From IMG/VR virus record IMGVR_UViG_3300009154_000042, positions 18,136 through 82,135 of that record: DNA of 64,000 nt, one strand, 5' to 3'. Shown here piece by piece: positions 22,396 through 57,417 of this stretch; position 1 is the stretch's first letter, and every line of letters begins with the position of its first letter. The notes under the pieces are model-generated. The model made no database searches, was not told where the DNA came from, and saw nothing but the letters and a program-made list of their open reading frames with translations. The position numbers and the translations under genes are program-made. Source of the stretch: a virus.

Positions 22396-22614
22396 TCATG
22401 AAAAAGTTTTTACACCTTTAAATCTTGCCAAGTCAGCTTCCCATTGATTCTTTGCATCCTTGCCTTGGATGAATCGCTGATACTGCTTGAATGAAAAACT
22501 TTTGTAATTAAACAAATCCTGTTCATTGAACTTGTATCCAAAATCACGACAAAATGTGCGATACTGCTCAAGTGACTTGAAGATATTGTTAACAGTTTGA
22601 TTAGTAATTGGCAT
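22396..22614 (-). CDS. Small hypothetical protein in the glycosyltransferase operon
   Basis: 72 residues, basic and aromatic-rich (FKSLEQYRTFCRDFGYKFNE and FKQYQRFIQGKDAKNQWEAD). The ATG shares one base with the stop of the glycosyltransferase gene upstream, so it is co-translated. It could be an accessory subunit for DNA glycosylation, but no domain is recognised. Confidence 0.55.
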   Translation of the reverse strand: MPITNQTVNNIFKSLEQYRTFCRDFGYKFNEQDLFNYKSFSFKQYQRFIQGKDAKNQWEADLARFKGVKTFS

Positions 22615-23600
22615 TATATTTCCTCTTGTGTGTTTGTTGTTGGATTGTTATTGGTAATATTATTTTCGACACACCACTCATCATAATTGGTGATTAGCTT
22701 CATGCCGTAATTGTCATATTTTTCTGGTAAAATTAGATTTGATTTTAATATTAAGTTATTTTTTTTAAATGAGCTATAATCTACATGGTGATGCCATCTT
22801 CCGTACCTGAATACAACTGTTGCAACGTCGGGATGCAAATCAACTAACATCTGTGATTTTGCAATTGTTCCTGCAACATTATATCTTTCTTTAATTTCAA
22901 GATTTTCACTAGTAATTGCTACTCCGCTTTCATCCAGGCCTATTTCTTTGTGATAAAATTCAGCAGTGTTGCCACCAGACACCGTTTGTGTTGCAGCTTT
23001 GCCTTGTAAAAATGCATTAAACTGAATAGTACAATCACCGTCTTTTAGGACTCGTAAGCAAATATCTGTATCTTCGTTGTATCGTCCACGCCAACGATGC
23101 TTACAGTCATTTTTGATAAGCAATGTTGAATAAATGCGGCAATTCTTTGAGTATGGAGGATATTTTTGATTTGGTGCAATAAAGAATCTATACTGAAAAC
23201 CTGCAATTGGCACATTTTCGTACCTATCAACAAAGTCTTCTGCTGCTCGGAATATTGCACCAGATTCTACACGAATTCTTTCATTCTTGTACAAGCGATA
23301 AAAATCTGCAATATTATCATCTAGGACCCAGTGACGTTCTGCTCCTAGAGCAATTGAGTGATCCCAGCACCAATTTCTAGCCCGCCCTGGACCATCTCCA
23401 TGATTACTAAAAGGAGCAATCAATAAAGTCACATATTCACGAATGCCAAAGATATCTAATGCAGATTCATAAAGTTCTTCATCCTGTGGCTCAATTGCAA
23501 TATAATGAGGAACTCTCATGCGAGACAACGACCTTGAAGTCAACATTGACTCATGGCGACCTTTACTTATAATATATACGGGATATCTTGGATTTGTCAT
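22614..23600 (-). CDS. TET-associated-type (TAGT) glycosyltransferase
   Basis: 328 residues. The N-terminus YPVYIISKGRH, then PHYIAIEPQDEELY, NHGDGPGRARNWCWDHSI and RHWVLDDNI with a D-D-N in the sugar-nucleotide site, follow the pattern of the TAGT family, a GT-A-like fold. Later EDTDICLRVLKDG is a second acidic motif. In the family, TAGT enzymes are predicted or shown to glycosylate modified pyrimidines of phage DNA. Here the gene is in one overlapping series with the sliding clamp, a second glycosyltransferase-like gene and a small conserved protein. No TET or hydroxymethylase is seen in the window, so the acceptor base is unknown. Confidence 0.75.
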   Translation of the reverse strand: MTNPRYPVYIISKGRHESMLTSRSLSRMRVPHYIAIEPQDEELYESALDIFGIREYVTLLIAPFSNHGDGPGRARNWCWDHSIALGAERHWVLDDNIADFYRLYKNERIRVESGAIFRAAEDFVDRYENVPIAGFQYRFFIAPNQKYPPYSKNCRIYSTLLIKNDCKHRWRGRYNEDTDICLRVLKDGDCTIQFNAFLQGKAATQTVSGGNTAEFYHKEIGLDESGVAITSENLEIKERYNVAGTIAKSQMLVDLHPDVATVVFRYGRWHHHVDYSSFKKNNLILKSNLILPEKYDNYGMKLITNYDEWCVENNITNNNPTTNTQEEI

Positions 23601-24664
23601 CTAAAGCCTTTTTCAACCGTCAAAAATTTGTGTTTATAGTATTCTAACATTTCCAGTCTCTTGGACTCATTTGGCTTATCATACATGATAAGCGGGGTTA
23701 AATCAACATCAAATGAAATTTGAACATCAGAAATATTACACATTTCATTTATGATTGGTAAACAATTGTTATGCAATGATTCTATAAATCGATAAATTGA
23801 AAAACAGTGTTGATCATATGATGGAAGAACAAGTGTAAATTTTGATTTCTTAATATAGTCCAGATATGTGTCTCTATCAACCAGACTATCTTCGCCAGTT
23901 ACATAGTTCTTGCAAAAAATATTTGTATTTGAAAAATAGGGAGACATTTGATCTACATAATCTAGTGCATAGTCTCTTTTGCTATTTTCAAGTACAGAGT
24001 ATCCAAATGTTAGATCATATATCTTTTCTTCCTTGACTTCAAAAAGATCATTTTTATTGTTGAAGTGAAACTGAAGACTGTCTAGTCTTTTAGTATTATA
24101 CTCTTTTATATCATATCCATGATATAAATGGTAGTTATTACTATTAGGAGCATAATCCTCGTGAACAAGATCTAATGACATTTCATTTGGATCAAATGCT
24201 AATTCATGTAACGGAATATCATATGTCCTATGTGCCTTCAATAAAGCCAGTAAGTTTGTCAATATAACACCACATGATTGCCATTTTAGCTGTCCCCTGT
24301 CGAGTGGAAATACTCCATTTCTTTTACTTCCGCGAGTGAGATTTGACCTCCAGAGATCGACGCCTCCGATGATATACAAATTTTTATATTCACTCAGAGG
24401 TGATATATCTATGCTATCATAAACTTCTTTCCAATTTGACATATTGATCGCATTTTTTTCATAAAATTCACCAAAAATATTTAAATTTTTATTAATATGA
24501 ATATTTGCGTAGCTGGAAATAAACTTACTAGTTTTATCTGTTTTTTTACATGACAAGTAGTCAACGTTAGTACCATTGCTGCGAAGAATACTCATATGAG
24601 CAACCACAGACTTGCCTTCCCTGCCTGTTATAGGCCTAGTTGTAAAAAAAAGACTGGAACTCAC
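23597..24664 (-). CDS. GT-B-like glycosyltransferase, putative
   Basis: 355 residues. The C-terminal part, KKSKFTLVLPSYDQHCFSIY then RFIESLHNNCLPII, resembles the acceptor/donor cleft of exostosin-like or phage GT-B glycosyltransferases (S-x-x-x-L-x-P-x-Y-D and R-x-x-E-x-L). The N-terminal 120 residues include NLYIIGGVDLW, a possible Rossmann strand. It overlaps the TAGT gene by 4 bp and is itself overlapped by the upstream gene, so it likely works on the same DNA or sugar product. Specificity is unknown and the family call is tentative. Confidence 0.55.
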   Translation of the reverse strand: MSSSLFFTTRPITGREGKSVVAHMSILRSNGTNVDYLSCKKTDKTSKFISSYANIHINKNLNIFGEFYEKNAINMSNWKEVYDSIDISPLSEYKNLYIIGGVDLWRSNLTRGSKRNGVFPLDRGQLKWQSCGVILTNLLALLKAHRTYDIPLHELAFDPNEMSLDLVHEDYAPNSNNYHLYHGYDIKEYNTKRLDSLQFHFNNKNDLFEVKEEKIYDLTFGYSVLENSKRDYALDYVDQMSPYFSNTNIFCKNYVTGEDSLVDRDTYLDYIKKSKFTLVLPSYDQHCFSIYRFIESLHNNCLPIINEMCNISDVQISFDVDLTPLIMYDKPNESKRLEMLEYYKHKFLTVEKGFR

Positions 24665-25008
24665 TCTTCAATCCATCGCTTAAGGAAATTCGCAGACCTA
24701 TCAAGCTTTGGATACCAAATGCTTTTAGTCTTTTTAGAAAGATTTTGATCTACTAGCTTTGCAAATGCGTTATAGTCATCTTCGTTCCTAAAGCTGACAT
24801 AAATTTTCATATATGGAGCATTGTCTTCCTGAACAAATTCAGGCATTCCCTTCCAATGTTTTTTCCATTCAGCTTCATCATCTTCGTCCCATCCTTCGAA
24901 TAGTGTATCTGCGGTGTTTTCTGGTTCCTCTAACGGAACTACTTTTCCAATACAATTTTCGTATTCAGTTGATTCTTCAACTGTAATTTTTGATGATTTG
25001 TCTGTCAT
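24661..25008 (-). CDS. Small conserved phage protein with KTKSIWYP motif
   Basis: 115 residues: an acidic N-terminal half, then APYMKIYVSFRNEDDYNAFA and KKTKSIWYPKLDR. Short proteins with a K-T-K-S-I-W-Y-P signature occur next to base-modification and ParB-like genes in diverse phages, as far as I recall. It sits between the clamp gene (4-nt gap) and the glycosyltransferases (4-bp overlap). The linkage supports a role in DNA modification, but no activity can be assigned. Confidence 0.6.
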   Translation of the reverse strand: MTDKSSKITVEESTEYENCIGKVVPLEEPENTADTLFEGWDEDDEAEWKKHWKGMPEFVQEDNAPYMKIYVSFRNEDDYNAFAKLVDQNLSKKTKSIWYPKLDRSANFLKRWIEE

Positions 25009-25012
25009 TGTA

Positions 25013-25747
25013 TTATTTTGCCTCCGCTGGAAGAAGGTATCGGTAGTCTGCTATTCCGCTGTCAACTGTAATTTCAACAGCGCCGCCATCAGAGAACTTG
25101 ATAACTTTATTACCTGGTAGATCCATGATTGCCATAAAAACTTTTACAGGCCAGTTCCAAGATTTGGTCAAAACTCCATTTACATTACTTTGAAATACAA
25201 AATTTCCGTTATTTGTACCGACATCGCCAAAATAAAATCTCAAATCACCCTTATCAGTGCGAGCAACAAAGTTCAGTTCTTCATTGTTTGCTGATGCTTG
25301 TTTCTTCATTTTCTGAATACTAGTGATGGCAGGCACAAGTTCAACATTCCATGTTGCGCCCTTGAATATAACTGTTTTTATCTTGTCTTCGATTACTGAT
25401 TTTGCCATGAGCCGATAATCGTTGACGAAATCGCCAACTTCTGTTTCAAAGTGAATGCTTATAGGAACATTCTTTTCTTCGCCCTTATCTTCACGAATGA
25501 CGTTTATTTTTGCCTTATTATCGTATTCATCAAAACTTAAAATTGTCTTTAACTTTGAAAGATTTGGCATACCAAATGTTCCTTGAAGTTCAGCAATAGG
25601 AACTTTGGACACTCCAGAAACAATAACTTTTCTATCTTCTGAATATGCAGAAATCTTGGTCTCGGTAGTTGAACTTTCTACTTTTATAAGTTCAATTATG
25701 CCTAGGCTGTATGTATGTTGAATGAGATCTTGTAGAAAATTTTTCAT
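25013..25747 (-). CDS. 45: DNA polymerase sliding clamp, gp45-like
   Basis: 244 residues, slightly longer than T4 gp45 (228). Pattern similarity to gp45 extends through the whole chain: an N-terminal MKNFLQDLIQ, a central strand series with VGDFVNDYRLMAKSV, and a C-terminal KVIKFSDGGAVEITVDS strand. The clamp holds the polymerase on DNA and, in T4-type phages, also activates late transcription, which fits the late octamers in this window. Its own sigma-70 promoter lies just upstream, and the DNA modification genes follow in the same direction. Confidence 0.85.
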   Translation of the reverse strand: MKNFLQDLIQHTYSLGIIELIKVESSTTETKISAYSEDRKVIVSGVSKVPIAELQGTFGMPNLSKLKTILSFDEYDNKAKINVIREDKGEEKNVPISIHFETEVGDFVNDYRLMAKSVIEDKIKTVIFKGATWNVELVPAITSIQKMKKQASANNEELNFVARTDKGDLRFYFGDVGTNNGNFVFQSNVNGVLTKSWNWPVKVFMAIMDLPGNKVIKFSDGGAVEITVDSGIADYRYLLPAEAK

Positions 25748-25769: not shown

Positions 25770-25798
25770 ATTATACCGTAAATTTATTAAAAAGTCAA
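25770..25798 (-). promoter_or_regulatory. Sigma-70 promoter for the clamp operon
   Basis: TTGACT, 17 bp, TATAAT, with the -10 box ending 22 bp before the clamp ATG. It lies between polymerase and clamp, so the clamp and glycosyltransferase genes can be expressed separately from the polymerase. Confidence 0.85.
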
Positions 25799-25803
25799 TA
25801 AAT

Positions 25804-28482
25804 TTATTCAAACGAGAATAAATCATTGATTGAACTGTTTGTGTTTATATCTGACTTTAAGTCCCAATTTAAGACTCCTAATAGATTTTCCAATTTTTGA
25901 TCAACCAACGTCTCGATCATGCCGTTGTTATCAAATGGTAATTCTTTGAACCATTCTGGCAATCTTAACTGGTCAACAGGATATGATATTGATGTAAGTC
26001 TAAGTGGATTTTCTTTTAATTTACACACAACAATTTTAGATCCATCTACGATTTTTTGGCTGTAATTATCTCCATTTAATTTTCTAAGATAATTATAATT
26101 CAATGAGGCACGTGCATGTCCTGGCATATTAGCTCTACCGGTCTTGCTGTTTGCTTCTAGAGATTCATAGTGCGCAAGTTTGTTAACAGACTTAGGCGAA
26201 CCCATTGTCCAGCTTGGTTGATCATACATCCAAACTTTGAATTCTATTATTTCTTTGACTATGCTATTTTTGTCTGAACCTGCGAGTAACATTTCAAGGA
26301 TTTTCATTAGAAATTCTTGAACATATTTCGGTGTATCCGCTCTTTTTAGGTCAAGACCCATTGCCTTGACTTTGCCGTCCTTGCCATCTTTGTCCTGTCG
26401 TTTGCCTTCTTTATCGTAATACCTAACAGCATATCGTTTCTTGGTAATAAAAAGAGCACGATCTGCAACAATCTCTCGTCCAGCTTTTATAACTTCACCT
26501 CTTGTTTTTGGACAATGAAATTGTTCGAGCATCATTTGTGGAAATGTAACGTTTACTTCTTCTGATATTTGATCATACAGTTGTATTACAGTGTCTTTGT
26601 TCCAAACAATTGATCCATTTTCAACTTCTTTTTTTAGGGTTGGCCATGCGGTAAAATACCCAGAATCAGTGTCACCGTATATTATACTAGTGCCAGCATG
26701 ATCATACGAACCTGTGATAAATTCATTTATTTTTGCCGCCATATGTCGCGTGATTCTTCGACCAGATAGAGTTGTACTTTGGCCAATTCTTTTGTCAAAA
26801 AATCTGCAACCCGCATTGAGAATTGCACCATAGAGAGAATTTAGGTTAATCTTTTTCACCAACTGGCGTTTATCCCAATATTCTTCTTCAATTGGATTTT
26901 CAGCTTTGATTGCGTCTTTTAGTTTGGCCTGCATTTCTTTTCGTTCTGCATACCAACGCTTTAGTAGGCCTGGAATAATACCTTCTTTTTCATAGGTAAA
27001 TATTGTACCGTTTGCGCTAAGAATCCACTGTTTGTTACTTTTGAAAATTAATTGATATATTTCTGCACCGTTTGTTATAACAGTGCTTCCATTTTCCCAG
27101 TCAATTATAATGTCATGCATGGTATCTTGGTTCATGACAAATTCATACTCGTTGCTGCCAAATTTACCTTCCCATGCCGCAGCAAAGCTCATGCCTTTGG
27201 CCATTTTTGCTTCAATTTCTGAAGTAGTATAATCCTGACGCAATTGGCCGATGATAGTTTCTGGACCCATATTCAATGCGCGAATCGCTGATGGATACAG
27301 CGAGTTAATATCCATTGATCCAATCCACTCATGTAGTCCTTTTTTAGGAACAGCTACATAAGCTCCTGCTGCTTGAGTGTCATCTCGGTCATTTTTACGA
27401 GATCGACTTGGAACTATTAGACCATATCGATGCGCCTCATTTATAATTGCCTGTTCAGTGACAGCCACTGCGCCCATAGTTGTTTGAAGAAGAACGGTAT
27501 TTTCATGCGCAATTGAACATGCTAAGTCTATGAATTTTAACTTTTTATCCAGTTTATCCAATAGTGCAGTATCTTGGCGGTTATATTCGATGAACGTTCT
27601 AAAATCATTATTATAAAGTTGATCAAGTGTGCCTTCATATACTGTTTTATTTTCACCAATTTCTGCCTCGCCTATTGCATCTAGTCGATATGAATGACGT
27701 TCTTCGTATGTGTATTTTTTATACAGTGATAGGCTGTCAAGGTGGACTCTGCCAACAAAATCATATGTTACGGCAGATTTTCCAAACTTCTCATATTCTC
27801 TTTTTTTTGGATATTGATTCCATAGGCATAATCTTTTTGTTGCTTCTTTGCCTAATGTCTTGCTTATTCTATTTACGGTATACGGAATATCAAACCCTTC
27901 AGAATTCCATCCGCTAATAACATCAGCATCATCAATTAAGTTAAGAAATGTGTCTAACATTTCAGCTTCAGAGTCAAATAGAAATGTATTGGGAATATCT
28001 TTTATTAATTCATTTGCTGCATCCATTGTCAGCGTCTTTGGAGGAAGCGCAAGGCATACAAGCGTGTCTAGCCATTGTAGATGTACTGATATAGCGGTGA
28101 TGGGCATGAATGCGTCTTCGGGACTTGCGTATCCTCTTTCTGGATCAAAGTCTACCTCAATATCGTAAAAGGCCACATTTAGTTTTGGCTCATCTTTTCC
28201 TAGATAGTTTTCTTCGAGGCATCGAAAAACAGCGTTCATGTCGCTTTCGTAGAGTTTATGACTGCCGTGAATCTTTTGTTCTTTGATGAACTCTTTCCAC
28301 GTTTTGCATTGTACTTTTGCTAATGGTTCATCAAAAATACTTTTATATTTTCCCTTTTGATCTGGATAATAAAAAACATATTTTGCAGGATAATCACGAT
28401 AAACTCTGCCTATTTTTGGATCACGTTCAACAACATGTATGGTATCGTTGTCTCTGTTCCAAATTGCATCAACATAGCTCAT
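25804..28482 (-). CDS. 43: Family-B replicative DNA polymerase, gp43-like
   Basis: 892 residues, the usual size for T4 gp43 (898). Exonuclease motifs are FYDIEVDFDP (Exo I), SGWNSEGFDIPY (Exo II) and Y-N-R-Q-D-T-A (Exo III). Polymerase motifs are SMDINSLYPSAI (motif A), KINLNSLYGAI (motif B) and IIYGDTDSGYF (motif C). All catalytic aspartates are present, so proofreading and synthesis should both be intact. The last residues (NDLFSFE) form a hydrophobic tail that may bind the sliding clamp. AGGAGA precedes the ATG, which overlaps the stop of a 41-residue upstream gene (ATGA). Confidence 0.95.
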   Translation of the reverse strand: MSYVDAIWNRDNDTIHVVERDPKIGRVYRDYPAKYVFYYPDQKGKYKSIFDEPLAKVQCKTWKEFIKEQKIHGSHKLYESDMNAVFRCLEENYLGKDEPKLNVAFYDIEVDFDPERGYASPEDAFMPITAISVHLQWLDTLVCLALPPKTLTMDAANELIKDIPNTFLFDSEAEMLDTFLNLIDDADVISGWNSEGFDIPYTVNRISKTLGKEATKRLCLWNQYPKKREYEKFGKSAVTYDFVGRVHLDSLSLYKKYTYEERHSYRLDAIGEAEIGENKTVYEGTLDQLYNNDFRTFIEYNRQDTALLDKLDKKLKFIDLACSIAHENTVLLQTTMGAVAVTEQAIINEAHRYGLIVPSRSRKNDRDDTQAAGAYVAVPKKGLHEWIGSMDINSLYPSAIRALNMGPETIIGQLRQDYTTSEIEAKMAKGMSFAAAWEGKFGSNEYEFVMNQDTMHDIIIDWENGSTVITNGAEIYQLIFKSNKQWILSANGTIFTYEKEGIIPGLLKRWYAERKEMQAKLKDAIKAENPIEEEYWDKRQLVKKINLNSLYGAILNAGCRFFDKRIGQSTTLSGRRITRHMAAKINEFITGSYDHAGTSIIYGDTDSGYFTAWPTLKKEVENGSIVWNKDTVIQLYDQISEEVNVTFPQMMLEQFHCPKTRGEVIKAGREIVADRALFITKKRYAVRYYDKEGKRQDKDGKDGKVKAMGLDLKRADTPKYVQEFLMKILEMLLAGSDKNSIVKEIIEFKVWMYDQPSWTMGSPKSVNKLAHYESLEANSKTGRANMPGHARASLNYNYLRKLNGDNYSQKIVDGSKIVVCKLKENPLRLTSISYPVDQLRLPEWFKELPFDNNGMIETLVDQKLENLLGVLNWDLKSDINTNSSINDLFSFE

Positions 28483-35469: not shown

Positions 35470-36407
35470 ATAAACTCTTTCAGCTTAGAAGTCTCAGGCA
35501 GGAATTTGCCAGTCAACCCTAGTTCATCTTTGTAGTTCAGCCAATGATATGTTAAGTTGTCAGGAATGTCAACCCTTGTTGAATCCAGAATCTTAAAGTA
35601 AGTACAAAGCAAGCGATACATTTGATCGGGATCAAGATTTTCAGCAAGCAACATGTAGAGCTTGTAATAATCCTCTGCATCGTCTTCGGTAATTTTAAAT
35701 CCAAGATGTGAGCCAAGCACAGCTAATGCACCTGCTGGTGATACTGCCACTAACTCGCCTGTGTGCTTATCCTTAACGCCTGCGACATGCCCAAATGATA
35801 ATCCTGCTATTTGAAACGCACTTAACATCAACTGTGTACGATGCAGACCTTTAACATTTGAATCTTCAGGATATGCAGCCGAGTAGTAGGAAAACTTCAG
35901 CCATTCAAGATTACCTACCATCCAGTCAATTTGTACACCTGTTCCTAAACTGGAGTTATTTTCATCAACCTGTGGATACAGTGTAAAGATGTTACCATCT
36001 GTTACCTTCTTCCCGTCGCAGAAGATATGTTCAGCATGATCGTTAATGTACTTGGTCAACAACTTAAGAAACGCTTTAATGCGCAGTTGGTTATCATTAC
36101 TAGATCGGGCCCGTTTCTTGAGTAGAATAAATTCATTCTCAAATTCTGCGGCAGCTAATCCCCACTCTTCTAAAGACTCATATACATCATTCAGATTGAG
36201 AATATCGTCAATGCTAACGCCAAGATCAATATCACCACTTACAGCTTTCTTGCCGACAGAACCTAGGGCAATGAAGTGATCTGTATTAAAAATGTCTTTT
36301 TTAGCTGGAAATAAATTAGATAATTCAGCAAAATATGCTGTTAAAGTCGGAGTAATGTGTTCACGCTTGATGCTGCTTGTTTTATCAGCAAATACGTTTC
36401 CGCCCAT
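35466..36407 (-). CDS. Pol-beta-type nucleotidyltransferase 2
   Basis: 313 residues. The start MGGNVFADKTSSIKREHI is typical of an uncharacterised phage nucleotidyltransferase group. FIALGSVGKKAVSGDIDLGV holds the G-S and D-x-D catalytic site; GVQIDWMVGN is the likely third acidic position. The C-terminal 150 residues are helical. The stop overlaps the next gene by 4 bp, and the start overlaps the fusion protein upstream by 23 bp. This tight pairing suggests a joint reaction. Confidence 0.75.
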   Translation of the reverse strand: MGGNVFADKTSSIKREHITPTLTAYFAELSNLFPAKKDIFNTDHFIALGSVGKKAVSGDIDLGVSIDDILNLNDVYESLEEWGLAAAEFENEFILLKKRARSSNDNQLRIKAFLKLLTKYINDHAEHIFCDGKKVTDGNIFTLYPQVDENNSSLGTGVQIDWMVGNLEWLKFSYYSAAYPEDSNVKGLHRTQLMLSAFQIAGLSFGHVAGVKDKHTGELVAVSPAGALAVLGSHLGFKITEDDAEDYYKLYMLLAENLDPDQMYRLLCTYFKILDSTRVDIPDNLTYHWLNYKDELGLTGKFLPETSKLKEFI

Positions 36408-37719
36408 TTGATTTACTTTCTTCTAGTGGTTGAAAAGATAGATACTCAGGATACTCTTTATTAAAATGACGCATTACAATACCAGCAACCGCATTAGCCT
36501 CATTCTCTTCAGGCGATCCTGTGGTAGGATCGATGTCAATGTGTTGTTCATGTTGTTTTGCATGTGCCAATTCATGTGCCAATGTTCTTAGTATATCAAC
36601 TGGCTGTCTATTTGCAATGGCTAATTCTAATGTGTATGAATCATTATGAAATCTGCCCATGGTAGGCTGATCACCCGAAGATAATGTCTTTTTAAGAACA
36701 ATAGTTGGCATATTATCTAGATTAACAATTTTTTTAGCAAATGGCAAGAACTTTTTTAAGATTTCTTTGAAATCAGCAACATTAATTGATTCAGAAATTC
36801 CATTTTTTTCGTGAGATGCTTGGCCCATTCCTATATCTGCCAAATCCATTATGTCTTTTTTAGGAACAAGATAAACATCTATCGTTTTTCGGTTCTCTAA
36901 ACTTATGGCTTTTTTCATGCGGTTGAGCCCATCGGCAACCGTAAGATGACCATCATCATTCTGTAACACTAATAACGGATAGTTAGTATCTGCATTAGCC
37001 ATTCTCTTACGCTGCTCTGGATTATCTTCCCACCAGTCTAAGTCATGCTGTAGTTTGCTTAGTGGAAAGTCTTTTTTGAAGTATACAGGATTGCTCTTAG
37101 CAAAATCCAATACACTTTCTACGCTCCAAGTATTGCCTTCTTCGTCGCCAAACTTGCTGCCTCGAAAATAATCTTTTTGTTTTGGATGTTTATCATCTGC
37201 AAAGTTTTCATCAATTTTGTCATTCAAAAATGTATCCGCTAAAGCTTTACAGGCTTTTCTAAGATTTTCACTATTTGTTTCTTGTAGCGTAAATTGCCGA
37301 GTGTCGTGTTCATGTTGCGTAGGATCCATATATCCACAGTAAACTTTGTGAACAGGACTTTTGTTAATTAAATCAGTGCAACTTTCTCCAACACGGTCAT
37401 CCATGTGATCTGAGCACGGACTTAGTGTGGTGATAATAATACTGCCTTTGGGAATTTCACCATATTTTTTTGTATAAGCCATCATTGCCGCCCGCTCGGC
37501 GTGGATTCTTCGACCATCTTTTCCGGGAAAGTTTAACCTTGCAACAAGGTTATTGTCAGGATCTAGAACGGCAGCAGCGACCATTCCATAATAGTCAGGA
37601 TCTTTGTCCTGTCCTTGAATAACCATTTCAGCCAATTTTGTTAAAATTCTGTCAAGTTTATCGAGATTTTTAATTTCCCAATCGGCCTGATCTTCGACAA
37701 AGAATTCTAGTAATTTCAT
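36385..37719 (-). CDS. Deaminase / ParB-like / zinc metallopeptidase fusion, probable capsid cargo
   Basis: 444 residues in three parts. It begins MKLLEFFVED, like the T4 capsid-targeting peptide. Residues 45-150 are a deaminase with RRIHAERAAM (catalytic H-A-E) and TTLSPCSDHMDDRVGESC (P-C-x11-C zinc ligands), closest in pattern to the RibD pyrimidine deaminase. Residues 185-310 are ParB-like (LTVADGLNRMKKAI). Residues 350-430 hold RTLAHELAHAKQHEQ (HExxH) with E-E-N-E-A-N-A-V-A-G further on, a gluzincin-like metallopeptidase. The arrangement recalls multidomain effectors. Substrates are unknown. All catalytic motifs look intact. Confidence 0.75.
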   Translation of the reverse strand: MKLLEFFVEDQADWEIKNLDKLDRILTKLAEMVIQGQDKDPDYYGMVAAAVLDPDNNLVARLNFPGKDGRRIHAERAAMMAYTKKYGEIPKGSIIITTLSPCSDHMDDRVGESCTDLINKSPVHKVYCGYMDPTQHEHDTRQFTLQETNSENLRKACKALADTFLNDKIDENFADDKHPKQKDYFRGSKFGDEEGNTWSVESVLDFAKSNPVYFKKDFPLSKLQHDLDWWEDNPEQRKRMANADTNYPLLVLQNDDGHLTVADGLNRMKKAISLENRKTIDVYLVPKKDIMDLADIGMGQASHEKNGISESINVADFKEILKKFLPFAKKIVNLDNMPTIVLKKTLSSGDQPTMGRFHNDSYTLELAIANRQPVDILRTLAHELAHAKQHEQHIDIDPTTGSPEENEANAVAGIVMRHFNKEYPEYLSFQPLEESKSNGRKRIC

Positions 37720-50282: not shown

Positions 50283-51941
50283 TTATCGTTTTATTTTGGA
50301 ACGAGGATACATTACACCTGTGCTAGGTCTAGTTTTTCTATTTGTTGAAGGATAAACATTTCCTGAACTGGGCCTTTCAATGTAGTAATAGAGATATCGA
50401 TTATTTGATGCATCTCCTAGACTAAAATATGGCGAAGTATTAATTGTACCCGTTGAATCTATTTGTGATTTTTTAGAATATTGAACAACATAGTCAAGTG
50501 CTTCGGACTGAGTTATTCGTGGATAAATTTCAGCTAAACACGCAATATATCCAGATACTTGCGGCGCAGACATACTAGTTCCACTGACAGCTCCTAAACT
50601 ATAACTTGAATTTCTAGGATCGTTAGCCAATGTTATACCAAATTCAGTTGCTGCGGCAGAATTGTAAACTGAGCTGATGATGTTGACTCCTGGTGCCCAA
50701 ATATCAACACGGCTTCCGTAATTACTAAAATTACCTTTAAATTCTTGTTTTTCTACTCCAATTGCACCTACGCAGATTACTCCTTCGGAGGATCCAGGGC
50801 TGGATCCTCTAGAATGATAAATTGTTGTTGTTCCGCTTGGAAATATTGCGACTATATTATTATTGTAGTTTGAATCAGATGGTGTTACTATATTCCAATA
50901 ACTATTCCCGGCAGACGCAACAACAATTACACCATCATTAATTGCGTCGATTACGTCAGCATTTAGCGCAGGATAGTAAGATGGAGTTCTAAGCAAAGAT
51001 GTTCCCAGTGGAACTGGAACGCCATTTGCTTCTAAAATTGATTTTCTATTAAAGTCAATTCCGGTAACTGATGTGGTTGTTCCAAGATAAGTGACTGAGG
51101 TCACACTAGTAAGTGGTATACTATTAAACGAATATCCCCAGCTATGATTGGTCACGGTTGGATTACGAAGGCCGGTAACAGGATTAATTGGTTTATTTTT
51201 ATGAAATGCTCTTAAATAATCAAAAATATACAGTTGCCAATTTGTTGGACTATTGGCTGCGGTATAATTAAATTCCATGTTAAAAATATTTGCATCTCTG
51301 GCCCATCCTTGAGTATTACCGGCAACTGTTCCAGCAACATGTGTTCCATGATTATTTAAAATAATGCTATAGCTGTAGCTGCCAGTTGTAACGATGCCTA
51401 CAATGTTACTAAGAGAAAACCAATTATATTGAATTACCCTAGATCCTCCAGTGCCGTTAATATTAACTGCAAATTCCGGATGATTTACATTAATGTGTGC
51501 ATCTACAATAACAACATCAACATTTTTTCCACTGTACGGAACAGATATAGTTGCAGTGGTCTGTGTAAAAGTGCCATTAGTGCCCCAGTCTGAAATTGAA
51601 TTACCAGATGCCACCCTGAGTAATCCCCAGTTTTTGTCATTAGAGTCAATAACAGCTGATTTTTCAAAATTTCCAGTTTGAGTCCAATGTGGAACAACTT
51701 CTATGCCTAGTTCGGACGGCAATAGCTCTACTGCAAGTACTCTAGGATCTTGTCGTATAGATTCAGCTTCCTCACCGGTTAATAAGTAGTGTGTATTTCT
51801 ACTCAATGGCCTGCGTTGAACCAAATCCACTTCTCTATCTGGTATAAACTCAGGTCCGCCAATAGTTTCCATGTCATTGTAAAATTCTTCAGAATCTGAA
51901 AAATTCTTTAATGTTACAATGTATTCTTTTAATTCTGACAT
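50283..51941 (-). CDS. Subtilisin-like serine protease (S8), virion-associated
   Basis: 552 residues. The catalytic triad is complete: Asp in VDVVIVDAHINVNHPEF, His in NNHGTHVAGTVAG, Ser in SGTSMSAPQVSGY, and the oxyanion Asn in VIVVASAGNSYW. Residues 1-85 resemble an inhibitor-like pro-domain (KEYIVTLKNFSDSEEFYNDM). It ends in a basic tail rich in Arg/Lys/Ser/Thr-Pro. It stands between virion genes. It may process virion proteins or be carried on the tail to cleave host surface proteins. No secretion signal is seen. Confidence 0.9.
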   Translation of the reverse strand: MSELKEYIVTLKNFSDSEEFYNDMETIGGPEFIPDREVDLVQRRPLSRNTHYLLTGEEAESIRQDPRVLAVELLPSELGIEVVPHWTQTGNFEKSAVIDSNDKNWGLLRVASGNSISDWGTNGTFTQTTATISVPYSGKNVDVVIVDAHINVNHPEFAVNINGTGGSRVIQYNWFSLSNIVGIVTTGSYSYSIILNNHGTHVAGTVAGNTQGWARDANIFNMEFNYTAANSPTNWQLYIFDYLRAFHKNKPINPVTGLRNPTVTNHSWGYSFNSIPLTSVTSVTYLGTTTSVTGIDFNRKSILEANGVPVPLGTSLLRTPSYYPALNADVIDAINDGVIVVASAGNSYWNIVTPSDSNYNNNIVAIFPSGTTTIYHSRGSSPGSSEGVICVGAIGVEKQEFKGNFSNYGSRVDIWAPGVNIISSVYNSAAATEFGITLANDPRNSSYSLGAVSGTSMSAPQVSGYIACLAEIYPRITQSEALDYVVQYSKKSQIDSTGTINTSPYFSLGDASNNRYLYYYIERPSSGNVYPSTNRKTRPSTGVMYPRSKIKR

Positions 51942-55313: not shown

Positions 55314-56135
55314 TTAATCAAAAAGCTGTTCAATTTCTTGTACTAAATCAGGATCACTTGTAGATCCTATTATTTTGCCACGGTGTTTGCCAATTAACAT
55401 TTCTCTAGCAGCAATCTCACTCATGCCGCGTGTCTGTAAGTAATAGATTTTTTCTGCGTCTAAGTAATCGGTACTTGTTATGCAATTTATTCTGGCAGAT
55501 TCGGTTACATTATATGATTCAGGAATACTATGACATTTGCCGCCTGGTTCAGTAATTAAATTTGCCAAGTCCATGCTAATTTGTGTGTGTCTTGAATGTT
55601 CCGCGACACTCGACATGCAATGAACAACTGTTTGGCTTTTTGATCCAGCCTCACATGAAATCATTTGATTACTTGCACTATAGCTACCTTGATGATCTAT
55701 CTTGGTAATTATTTCACAATCTCCTCCAGATCTACTCATAATGTATCCATAGGAATTAAAGGTAGCCAAATCGTCTAGAGTGACTTCAAAAATATGCTTA
55801 TTAAGCTTTCCACCTTTGATAAACATTCCCATATTTAATGTTGCGCCATCCCTCAGAATGATATCATATATAAAGACCTGTTGAAGTTTATCAAAAGCAT
55901 CATTTATAATAGTAAGATCCAATGAAGCACCTTCTCTGACATCAATTTTGATATGTTTTGCCAACAACTCACGTTCATTAGGAGATTGGCGCAATACCAT
56001 ATATTCTGTCTTGTTCGGTCCAAGTTCTAATAAACTTGCATCTACTATTTTAAATTCTTTATCAAAATACTGATCTGGAGTAAACGCCCAATCAGGATCG
56101 CCTTTTTTTGCCTTAAGAAAGCTCTGAATACCCAT
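55314..56135 (-). CDS. SufD/SufB-like Fe-S assembly scaffold protein
   Basis: 273 residues, shorter than bacterial SufD (about 420). The beta-helix region includes KIDVREGASLDLTI and LRDGATLNMGMFIKGGKLN. The C-terminus, LDAEKIYYLQTRGMSEIAAR, matches the characteristic end of SufB/SufD. In SufB the segment just before this is H-E-A-x-x-S; here it is N-C-I-T-S, so the His/Glu pair is not kept. SufB/D form the scaffold of Fe-S cluster assembly with SufC. It overlaps the SufC-like gene by 23 bp. It may alter host Fe-S biogenesis. Confidence 0.75.
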   Translation of the reverse strand: MGIQSFLKAKKGDPDWAFTPDQYFDKEFKIVDASLLELGPNKTEYMVLRQSPNERELLAKHIKIDVREGASLDLTIINDAFDKLQQVFIYDIILRDGATLNMGMFIKGGKLNKHIFEVTLDDLATFNSYGYIMSRSGGDCEIITKIDHQGSYSASNQMISCEAGSKSQTVVHCMSSVAEHSRHTQISMDLANLITEPGGKCHSIPESYNVTESARINCITSTDYLDAEKIYYLQTRGMSEIAAREMLIGKHRGKIIGSTSDPDLVQEIEQLFD

Positions 56136-56835
56136 TTTCTACGATCCTCTTACATAATTCGCCATCGCCAGACATGGTAATTTTTCCCGAGGTCATTACA
56201 TGAATATGCGTGGGGTTTATTAAACTTAAAAATAATTGATTTCTTGTAATGATCAATGCACTGCATTTATTAATTGCGATTGCTTCGTTGACTACATTTG
56301 CAAATAATTTGACCTCATTTTCTGAAAGGCCGTCATCAATTTCGTCTAAAATGATTAATTTTGGATCTGACATTAACATATGAACTATTTCATTGTATTT
56401 GAAATGAGATAATAACATTGGACCATCGATGTTAATTTTATCACCATGTGATTCCGTTAATCCCATCATCTGGCAACATGCTAAATATCCAGCTTGCATC
56501 TTGTCTATGTCTTGTAAAGATGCCTTGATAAAATTTTCAAATAGTTCCCAGTTGGTAAAATTCTCAAAGTCTGGTGGATTTTGAAAACCGATAAAAATCC
56601 CACGCTTGCTTCGTTCTTGTGCTGAAAGTTTATTGATTTTTTTTCTGTCAAATTTGATATTGCCACTTTCAATGACCAGACTTGGATGTCCAGTAATAAT
56701 GTGTGCCAATGCTGATTTTCCGCTATGAACTGGTCCAGTTACTACATGGATTTCTCCAGAATTTATAGATAAATTTATATCAGTTAATAATGGCTGATTT
56801 TCTGCAACTACAAATAAGTTGTTAATTTTTAACAT
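56113..56835 (-). CDS. SufC-like ABC ATPase with lost signature motifs
   Basis: 240 residues, similar in length to SufC (about 250). Walker A is GPVHSGKSALAH near residue 35, Q-loop FIGFQNPPDFENF is normal, and Walker B KLIILDEIDDGL is present with its catalytic Glu. The ABC signature, normally L-S-G-G-[EQ], reads LLSHFKYNEI, and the H-loop His is replaced by Arg (IITRNQLF). The ATPase should therefore bind ATP but may hydrolyse it poorly. It is joined to a SufD-like protein and to superoxide dismutase. Confidence 0.8.
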   Translation of the reverse strand: MLKINNLFVVAENQPLLTDINLSINSGEIHVVTGPVHSGKSALAHIITGHPSLVIESGNIKFDRKKINKLSAQERSKRGIFIGFQNPPDFENFTNWELFENFIKASLQDIDKMQAGYLACCQMMGLTESHGDKINIDGPMLLSHFKYNEIVHMLMSDPKLIILDEIDDGLSENEVKLFANVVNEAIAINKCSALIITRNQLFLSLINPTHIHVMTSGKITMSGDGELCKRIVENGYSELS

Positions 56836-56838
56836 AAT

Positions 56839-57417
56839 TTATCTTGAAATCCCTAATTCTGGCATCCTTTGCTCAATTGATTCCCAGTTAATTATCTTCC
56901 AAATATTTTTTAGATATCTTGCCTTATCTGATTGATAATCCAGTGCCCATGCATGTTCCCACCAATCTATCAAAATTACTATATCTGACCTAATTTCATG
57001 ATTTTTAATTGTTTTTATTTTTCCAGTCGTGGACAAATATACCCATCCTGAACCCTGGATAGACATCGCTTCTTCCTCAAACGTTTTCTTTAATTCATCA
57101 AAATCAGAAAAATGTTTATTAATGAAATTTGAAATTTTCTCTGTAGGCTTATTTGATCCTGAAGGTGCATGAAATTGACCAAAATATATGTTATGTAAAA
57201 ATGCACCCGCCTTGTTAAACTTCAAATCGCCTTCACTTTTGTTATACCGTTCAACATAAGATTTGTAAAGTTTGCCGTAATGATAGTCCATGGTGCTTTC
57301 TGACATTATTGGATCTAATTCATCTCGGGAATATGATAATTTTAATTGCGTTAAAATTTCACCATCTGATGATTTTGATTCTTGTAAAATAAAATCTTTT
57401 ATGAAGTTTTGAGTCAT
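56839..57417 (-). CDS. Fe/Mn-type superoxide dismutase
   Basis: 192 residues, the usual length. Metal ligands are kept: His in MDYHYGKLY, His in FLHNIYFGQF, and Asp/His in DWWEHAWALDY; the gateway Tyr is in KSYVERYN. The second-sphere Gln of Fe enzymes (position 69 of E. coli FeSOD) is Gly here, and at the Mn-type Gln position the residue is His (K-N-H-E). Metal preference is hard to predict. It removes superoxide and lies next to the Suf-like genes. A late octamer ends exactly 5 nt before the ATG. Confidence 0.88.
   Translation of the reverse strand: MTQNFIKDFILQESKSSDGEILTQLKLSYSRDELDPIMSESTMDYHYGKLYKSYVERYNKSEGDLKFNKAGAFLHNIYFGQFHAPSGSNKPTEKISNFINKHFSDFDELKKTFEEEAMSIQGSGWVYLSTTGKIKTIKNHEIRSDIVILIDWWEHAWALDYQSDKARYLKNIWKIINWESIEQRMPELGISR

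Follow-up and report, generated by a model that had tools for sequence, protein, structure and literature searches.

Why would two glycosyltransferase genes stand directly behind the gene for a sliding clamp? The question is raised by a 64-kb stretch of viral DNA, referred to here as the window, out of the linear 82-kb IMG/VR record IMGVR_UViG_3300009154_000042. On its minus strand, a gp45/PCNA-like clamp gene (25013-25747, 244 amino acids) is followed by genes for a KTK protein (24661-25008, 115 amino acids, with an acidic N-terminus and a C-terminal KTKSIWYP domain), for the GT-B-like glycosyltransferase GT355 (23597-24664, 355 amino acids, GTG start) and for the GT-A type glycosyltransferase TAGT (22614-23600, 328 amino acids). 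We propose that KTK, GT355 and TAGT are probably a laterally acquired DNA-hypermodification cassette with a two-part glycosyltransferase.

Profile searches place TAGT in a family of DNA glycosyltransferases, as an earlier note on this DNA, made from the sequence alone, had suggested. The protein matches PF20691 with an E-value of 2e-45 and 155.7 bits (curated cut-off 27.5), far above chance, and PHROG 842 with 6e-47. The acidic motifs of GT-A enzymes, DDN at residues 94-96 and NEDTD at residues 175-179, are kept in the window protein and in its homologues from Ah1, PTm1, Kuja and Vibrio. According to PMC13216743, the T2/T6 member of the family glucosylates already glucosylated hydroxymethylcytosine (hmC) in DNA. 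The relationship to the T6 protein is remote, with 37 bits against the profile and no match in BLASTP. Sequence searches of the PDB with TAGT, GT355, the clamp and KTK gave nothing useful.

TAGT genes of this type come with KTK. In all 78 viral loci that could be tested, that is, those where KTK could be seen, KTK lies upstream of TAGT, directly adjoining it in 67 and separated from it by a single gene in 11. The intervening gene is GT355 in five cases (including the window population), methyltransferase-like in four, a second TAGT-like gene in one and unassigned in one. A scan for the motif KTKxIWYP gave a similar picture, with TAGT adjacent at 101 of 114 loci and in the same open reading frame (ORF) at nine more (110/114). 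At one apparently genuine exception, a KTK-type sequence at a contig end (L342:3853-4071), no TAGT is found within 3.8 kb downstream. We considered, and rejected, a wider occurrence of the KTK motif among phage proteins, since it is almost exclusive to TAGT loci. In Ah1, PTm1, 1.076.O, 1.124.O and both Kuja copies, KTK and TAGT are a single protein with KTK at its N-terminal end, so that cultured phages of Aeromonas, Tenacibaculum and Vibrio are among those carrying fusions, and fused proteins of some viral contigs contain two KTK copies. Many of the pairs are placed among replication and recombination genes (gp47-gp46-...-gp45-gp44). Because the two are invariably paired, with KTK upstream, and are fused in cultured phages, we regard KTK and TAGT, on the basis of these comparisons, as one enzyme or system, with Aeh1ORF087c as its prototype.

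GT355 has only a weak match in Pfam (RXYLT1_C, 0.006) and matches neither the alpha- nor the beta-glucosyltransferase (alpha-GT, beta-GT). Its AlphaFold model is good (predicted local distance difference test, pLDDT, 80; predicted template modelling score, pTM, 0.82), and the top Foldseek matches of the model are GT-B type enzymes (best E 6e-5, probability 1.0, TM-scores of only 0.33-0.48). The weak Pfam match, the model and the Foldseek matches together support a second glycosyltransferase, which is how the earlier note had read this gene. GT355 homologues recurrently adjoin KTK/TAGT (11 of 14 on viral contigs), in two arrangements: in the slot separating KTK from TAGT, or upstream of a KTK-TAGT fusion. 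In phage XG4 and in record G043, GT355 homologues are found in operons with a gp42-type deoxycytidine monophosphate (dCMP) hydroxymethylase, 51% and 64% identical to T6 gp42. The two operons match each other (L115:100-6580 and L123:3469-9573), their further members being a HAD phosphatase, a sugar nucleotidyltransferase-kinase, a second glycosyltransferase and a C5-methylase-like protein. Since these homologues stand with enzymes of DNA precursors, the arrangement supports a role of GT355 in DNA modification. A GT355 profile found no match among the T6 ORFs of 1-40 kb, alpha-GT included. The arabinosylation genes of RB69 were also considered as GT355 relatives and rejected, as the profile had no match in RB69 1-45 kb.

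The layout of the locus is that of an operon. The clamp and KTK genes are separated by 4 nucleotides, KTK/GT355 and GT355/TAGT overlap by 4, and TAGT overlaps by 1 with a 72-amino-acid ORF (22396-22614, minus strand) that would be co-transcribed. The DNA polymerase gene (25804-28482) lies upstream of the clamp gene across a gap of 56 nucleotides, and in this gap a sigma-70-type promoter, TTGACT-17-TATAAT (25770-25798, minus strand), matches 11 of the 12 consensus positions. Taken together, promoter-like matches in the region are no more frequent than expected by chance (32 observed, 30.2 +/- 5.8 expected). We consider the clamp promoter credible because of its 11/12 match in the polymerase-clamp gap and because a similar site, TTGACT-17-CATAAT, is found at the equivalent position upstream of the clamp in G036, a relative described below. 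The clamp-KTK-GT355-TAGT-72-residue block thus has the appearance of a real operon with the clamp gene first, and KTK-GT355-TAGT that of a credible DNA-modification cassette within it. The earlier note had described a promoter followed by five closely spaced genes forming one operon with the clamp, and the ORF coordinates agree; the interval that it gave, 22614-25747, holds the other genes and leaves out the 72-residue ORF named in its text.

To which phage does this operon belong? The window polymerase is closest to those of jumbo phages of 350-490 kb (Sinorhizobium phage Phosso, 50% identical; Agrobacterium phage Atu_ph07, 44%), and the closest long relative found is G036 (364 kb), with identities of 58% for the polymerase, 61% for the clamp and 55% for the clamp loader and with matches to more than 40 further window ORFs. 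The 82-kb record would then be about one fifth of a jumbo genome, and gene absences in it therefore say little. The clamp itself has no match in Pfam or, by sequence, in the PDB. Its assignment is based on its place after the polymerase, on its identity to the equivalently placed gene of G036 and on PHROG 12062; it has homologues in jumbo phages, one of them annotated as PCNA.

Comparison with G036 shows that the cassette is an insertion. Behind the G036 clamp, which has the similar promoter upstream, there is no cassette, and the clamp gene overlaps by 4 nucleotides with a different gene of 127 amino acids. KTK-TAGT is found at 48 kb, the clamp at 132 kb and GT355 at 213 kb, about 80 kb to either side of the clamp. 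The 72-residue ORF does have a counterpart in G036, 57% identical and about 0.5 kb behind the clamp, and for this reason we assign it to the clamp backbone. The earlier note had placed it in the cassette order; it would be co-transcribed with the cassette and is not one of its members. Phylogeny conflicts as well. With T4-like aquatic phages, the window shares 75-80% identity in TAGT and only 28-32% in the polymerase; with G036, it shares 42% in TAGT and 58% in the polymerase. In a maximum-likelihood tree the window TAGT groups among those of T4-like phages and the G036 TAGT falls elsewhere; a clade of the two is rejected by the approximately unbiased test (p-AU 0.001, an approximate value, G036 being on a long branch). 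The cassette does not stand out as foreign by its base composition; GT355 is somewhat AT-rich (31.7% GC versus 37.3 +/- 3.1). On these comparisons, KTK-GT355-TAGT is a laterally acquired cassette in a jumbo phage lineage. The placement beside the clamp gene appears to be itself recent, and KTK may be what links the cassette to the clamp. The gene order, from which a connection of glycosylation with replication had been drawn, would thus reflect, judging by G036, an insertion in this lineage and not an old functional operon.

The N-termini of split KTKs are acidic and variable, and carry, 15-24 residues ahead of the KTK core, a short motif of the [ST]LxxF[FL] type (for example TLEDFF or SLADFL). 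A preset pattern, [ST]L..[LMF][FYL], derived from the clamp-binding ends of T4/RB69-family proteins, is present in 19 of 52 non-redundant split KTKs (shuffles: mean 0.3, maximum 3; background, 0.6% of sequence windows), and a relaxed pattern, composed after viewing the sequences, in 44 of the 52 (shuffles: mean 9.7, maximum 19); as the KTKs are related by descent, shuffles overstate independence, and these figures describe a conserved motif, not its independent origin. The ends compared are those of the polymerases of T6 (SLDFLF), RB69 (SLFDMF) and G040 (SLEDFF), and of gp55 (SLDFLY). Such hydrophobic-acidic ends bind the clamp and are interchangeable, and an internal one is functional (reviewed in PMC2988020). 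In addition, gp45 co-purifies with the T4 alpha-GT (PMC13216743). A putative contact by which KTK tethers to the clamp is therefore possible, and a link between glycosylation and replication is plausible through the KTK motif and the binding of alpha-GT to gp45, and not through the gene order.

In the mechanism that we favour, the cassette would have entered a jumbo phage laterally and landed directly behind the clamp gene, and would therefore be transcribed from the clamp promoter. TAGT would be the GT-A catalytic part and KTK its small subunit, which other phages encode as an N-terminal domain joined to TAGT. TAGT would transfer a sugar from a nucleotide-sugar onto a hydroxylated base in new phage DNA, and KTK would probably bring TAGT to the DNA, possibly by binding the clamp through its flexible N-terminal motif. 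GT355 would add a second or alternative sugar, and the outcome would be phage DNA shielded from host nucleases. The DNA substrate, the sugar, the base, the clamp contact and the protective role are the parts that we infer. Several results weigh against this mechanism. The DNA substrate of TAGT is drawn from its family alone, because the near-complete relatives yielded no enzyme that would make an acceptor, in a search that small or novel enzymes may escape. Foldseek support for GT355 is modest. The AlphaFold model of a naturally fused KTK-KTK-TAGT protein reached a pLDDT of 43, and we therefore make no structural claim for KTK. To the shared descent of the KTKs must be added that the motif of the window KTK, TLFEGW, is imperfect and fits neither pattern, and that most fused KTK-TAGT proteins are without the motif.

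These last two points also favour a rival that competes with one step of the mechanism and not with the whole: KTK would serve TAGT as a subunit for DNA binding or folding and would play no part at the clamp, the motif would only dock TAGT, and the adjacency of the clamp gene would be due to chance. Fused forms keeping KTK but not the motif are as this rival predicts, and the clamp adjacency is lineage-specific; however, the motif agrees with hydrophobic-acidic clamp-binding ends as published (PMC2988020) and is far above the shuffles. We give this rival slightly less than even odds.

Which base would receive the sugar? Thymidylate-synthase-family genes (PF00303), which include the dCMP hydroxymethylases, were not found in the 82-kb record, a fragment, nor in 35 other TAGT-linked records. 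The single PF00303 match in G036 is marked by its LGLPFN motif as a true thymidylate synthase; the sole such gene in the complete Ah1 genome is also a true thymidylate synthase; and G038-G040 (150-153 kb each), 1.076.O and 1.124.O have none of this family. TET/JBP (PF12851) had no match in 36 + 15 records, with no true positive from the control genomes either. A route by a C5-methylase and an oxidase was rejected, as PF00145 was found only in 1.124.O (a partial match) among the genomes searched and PF13640 only in G038. A separate oxygenase-like protein of G040 is absent from G039, so that there is no shared oxygenase. In G040 (L229:6893-19971, L230:1-6405), carbamoyltransferase, radical SAM-like and oxygenase-like proteins and several glycosyltransferases lead to a cluster end of KTK, a second TAGT-like protein and TAGT. 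In the literature, gene 42 is missing from Aeh1 and 65 (PMC2993671), and Aeh1ORF087c is a presumed DNA glucosyltransferase for which the modified base is listed as unknown (PMC8056088); we confirmed that this protein (Aeh1p093) is a fused KTK-TAGT. No known enzyme in the near-complete relatives examined thus appears to explain the sugar-receiving base. The absence of TET or hydroxymethylase genes near the locus, from which the earlier note had concluded that the acceptor may be novel, carries little weight in a fragment, and so does the absence of PF00303 and PF12851 from the rest of the record; it is from the near-complete relatives that an unusual acceptor gains support.

A bolder version of the mechanism, in which a clamp-tethered, two-part KTK-TAGT sugars a base made by a novel route and spreads among unrelated aquatic phages in a cassette whose slot can take different second modifying enzymes, is possible in our view and still doubtful. 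The route would be other than a thymidylate-synthase-type hydroxymethylase, and perhaps involve neither TET/JBP nor a C5-methyl base. Against it stands ordinary T-even- or RB69-like chemistry, in which a dCMP hydroxymethylase or a hydroxy-dCMP synthase is encoded outside the recovered fragment and the two glycosyltransferases act on hydroxymethylated or hydroxylated deoxycytidine (hmC or hodC). The window covers about one fifth of a jumbo genome, gp42-type hydroxymethylases adjoin the GT355 homologues of XG4 and G043, and PTm1, which has a fused KTK-TAGT, also encodes a protein of the thymidylate synthase family 38% identical to RB69 ORF048c (L096:1444-2121), making PTm1 a candidate case of hydroxycytosine as acceptor. 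Yet the thymidylate synthases of G036 and Ah1 and the lack of any family member in G038-G040 argue the other way, and we consider the ordinary chemistry unlikely. That the glycosyltransferases act on phage or host surface glycans or on protein is improbable: many phage glycosyltransferases have been assigned to surface polysaccharide (PMC7824862) and GT25-type lipopolysaccharide enzymes lie near some TAGT loci, but TAGT family members of known role act on DNA (PMC13216743), KTK-TAGT stands among replication genes in many genomes, and GT355 homologues share operons with DNA-precursor enzymes.

If the laterally acquired cassette is compared with known systems, the nearest are Aeh1 ORF087c and its Ah1 homologue, of the same TAGT clade (about 50% identical) and with the same KTK domain. 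There, KTK is fused and not separate, and neither GT355 nor a clamp neighbour is present. The beta-glucosyl-HMC-alpha-glucosyltransferase of T2/T6 shares PF20691, the GT-A type and the order of acidic motifs with the window TAGT, but reaches 37 bits to the profile versus 156, shows no BLASTP similarity and has no KTK; its substrate, alpha-glucosyl-hmC, is the product of gp42 and alpha-GT, and neither enzyme is seen in the fragmentary window record. As to the components of T4 glucosylation, PF00303 gave no gp42 hydroxymethylase in this record and GT355 matches neither alpha-GT nor beta-GT in Pfam, and RB69-type arabinosylation lacks a counterpart there both in PF00303 and in the RB69 search with GT355. 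The T4 alpha-GT differs in being a GT-B enzyme of another family, and we know of no KTK-like subunit for it. What it has in common with the proposed system is that a DNA-modifying glycosyltransferase is tethered to gp45, the sliding clamp (PMC13216743). Solitary TAGT phages (288 of 753 without alpha-GT or beta-GT; PMC13216743) share with the window a TAGT in the absence of both enzymes, and the passages cited from that account make no mention of a KTK partner, slot genes or a clamp-like motif. The XG4 and G043 operons contain a homologous GT-B-like enzyme, but have no TAGT and carry a gp42-type hydroxymethylase, a sugar nucleotidyltransferase and a second glycosyltransferase.

TAGT phages with no recognised first glucosyltransferase are an acknowledged puzzle. 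For one large TAGT clade, with at least 545 matching viral contigs, our comparisons name KTK as a dedicated partner, propose a route by which TAGT may reach newly copied DNA, and point to GT355 as a second enzyme family that travels with it. The phages Ah1, Aeh1 and 1.124.O are in culture, and their DNA can be analysed directly for the acceptor base.

Elsewhere in the window, inspection by eye suggested two adjacent SufD-like and SufC ATPase-like genes of iron-sulphur cluster assembly (55314-56835), with an iron superoxide dismutase-like gene beside them (56839-57417). Also by eye, a subtilisin-like protease gene (50283-51941) was noted amid structural-looking genes, and a protein with a deaminase-like N-terminal part is encoded at 36385-37719.

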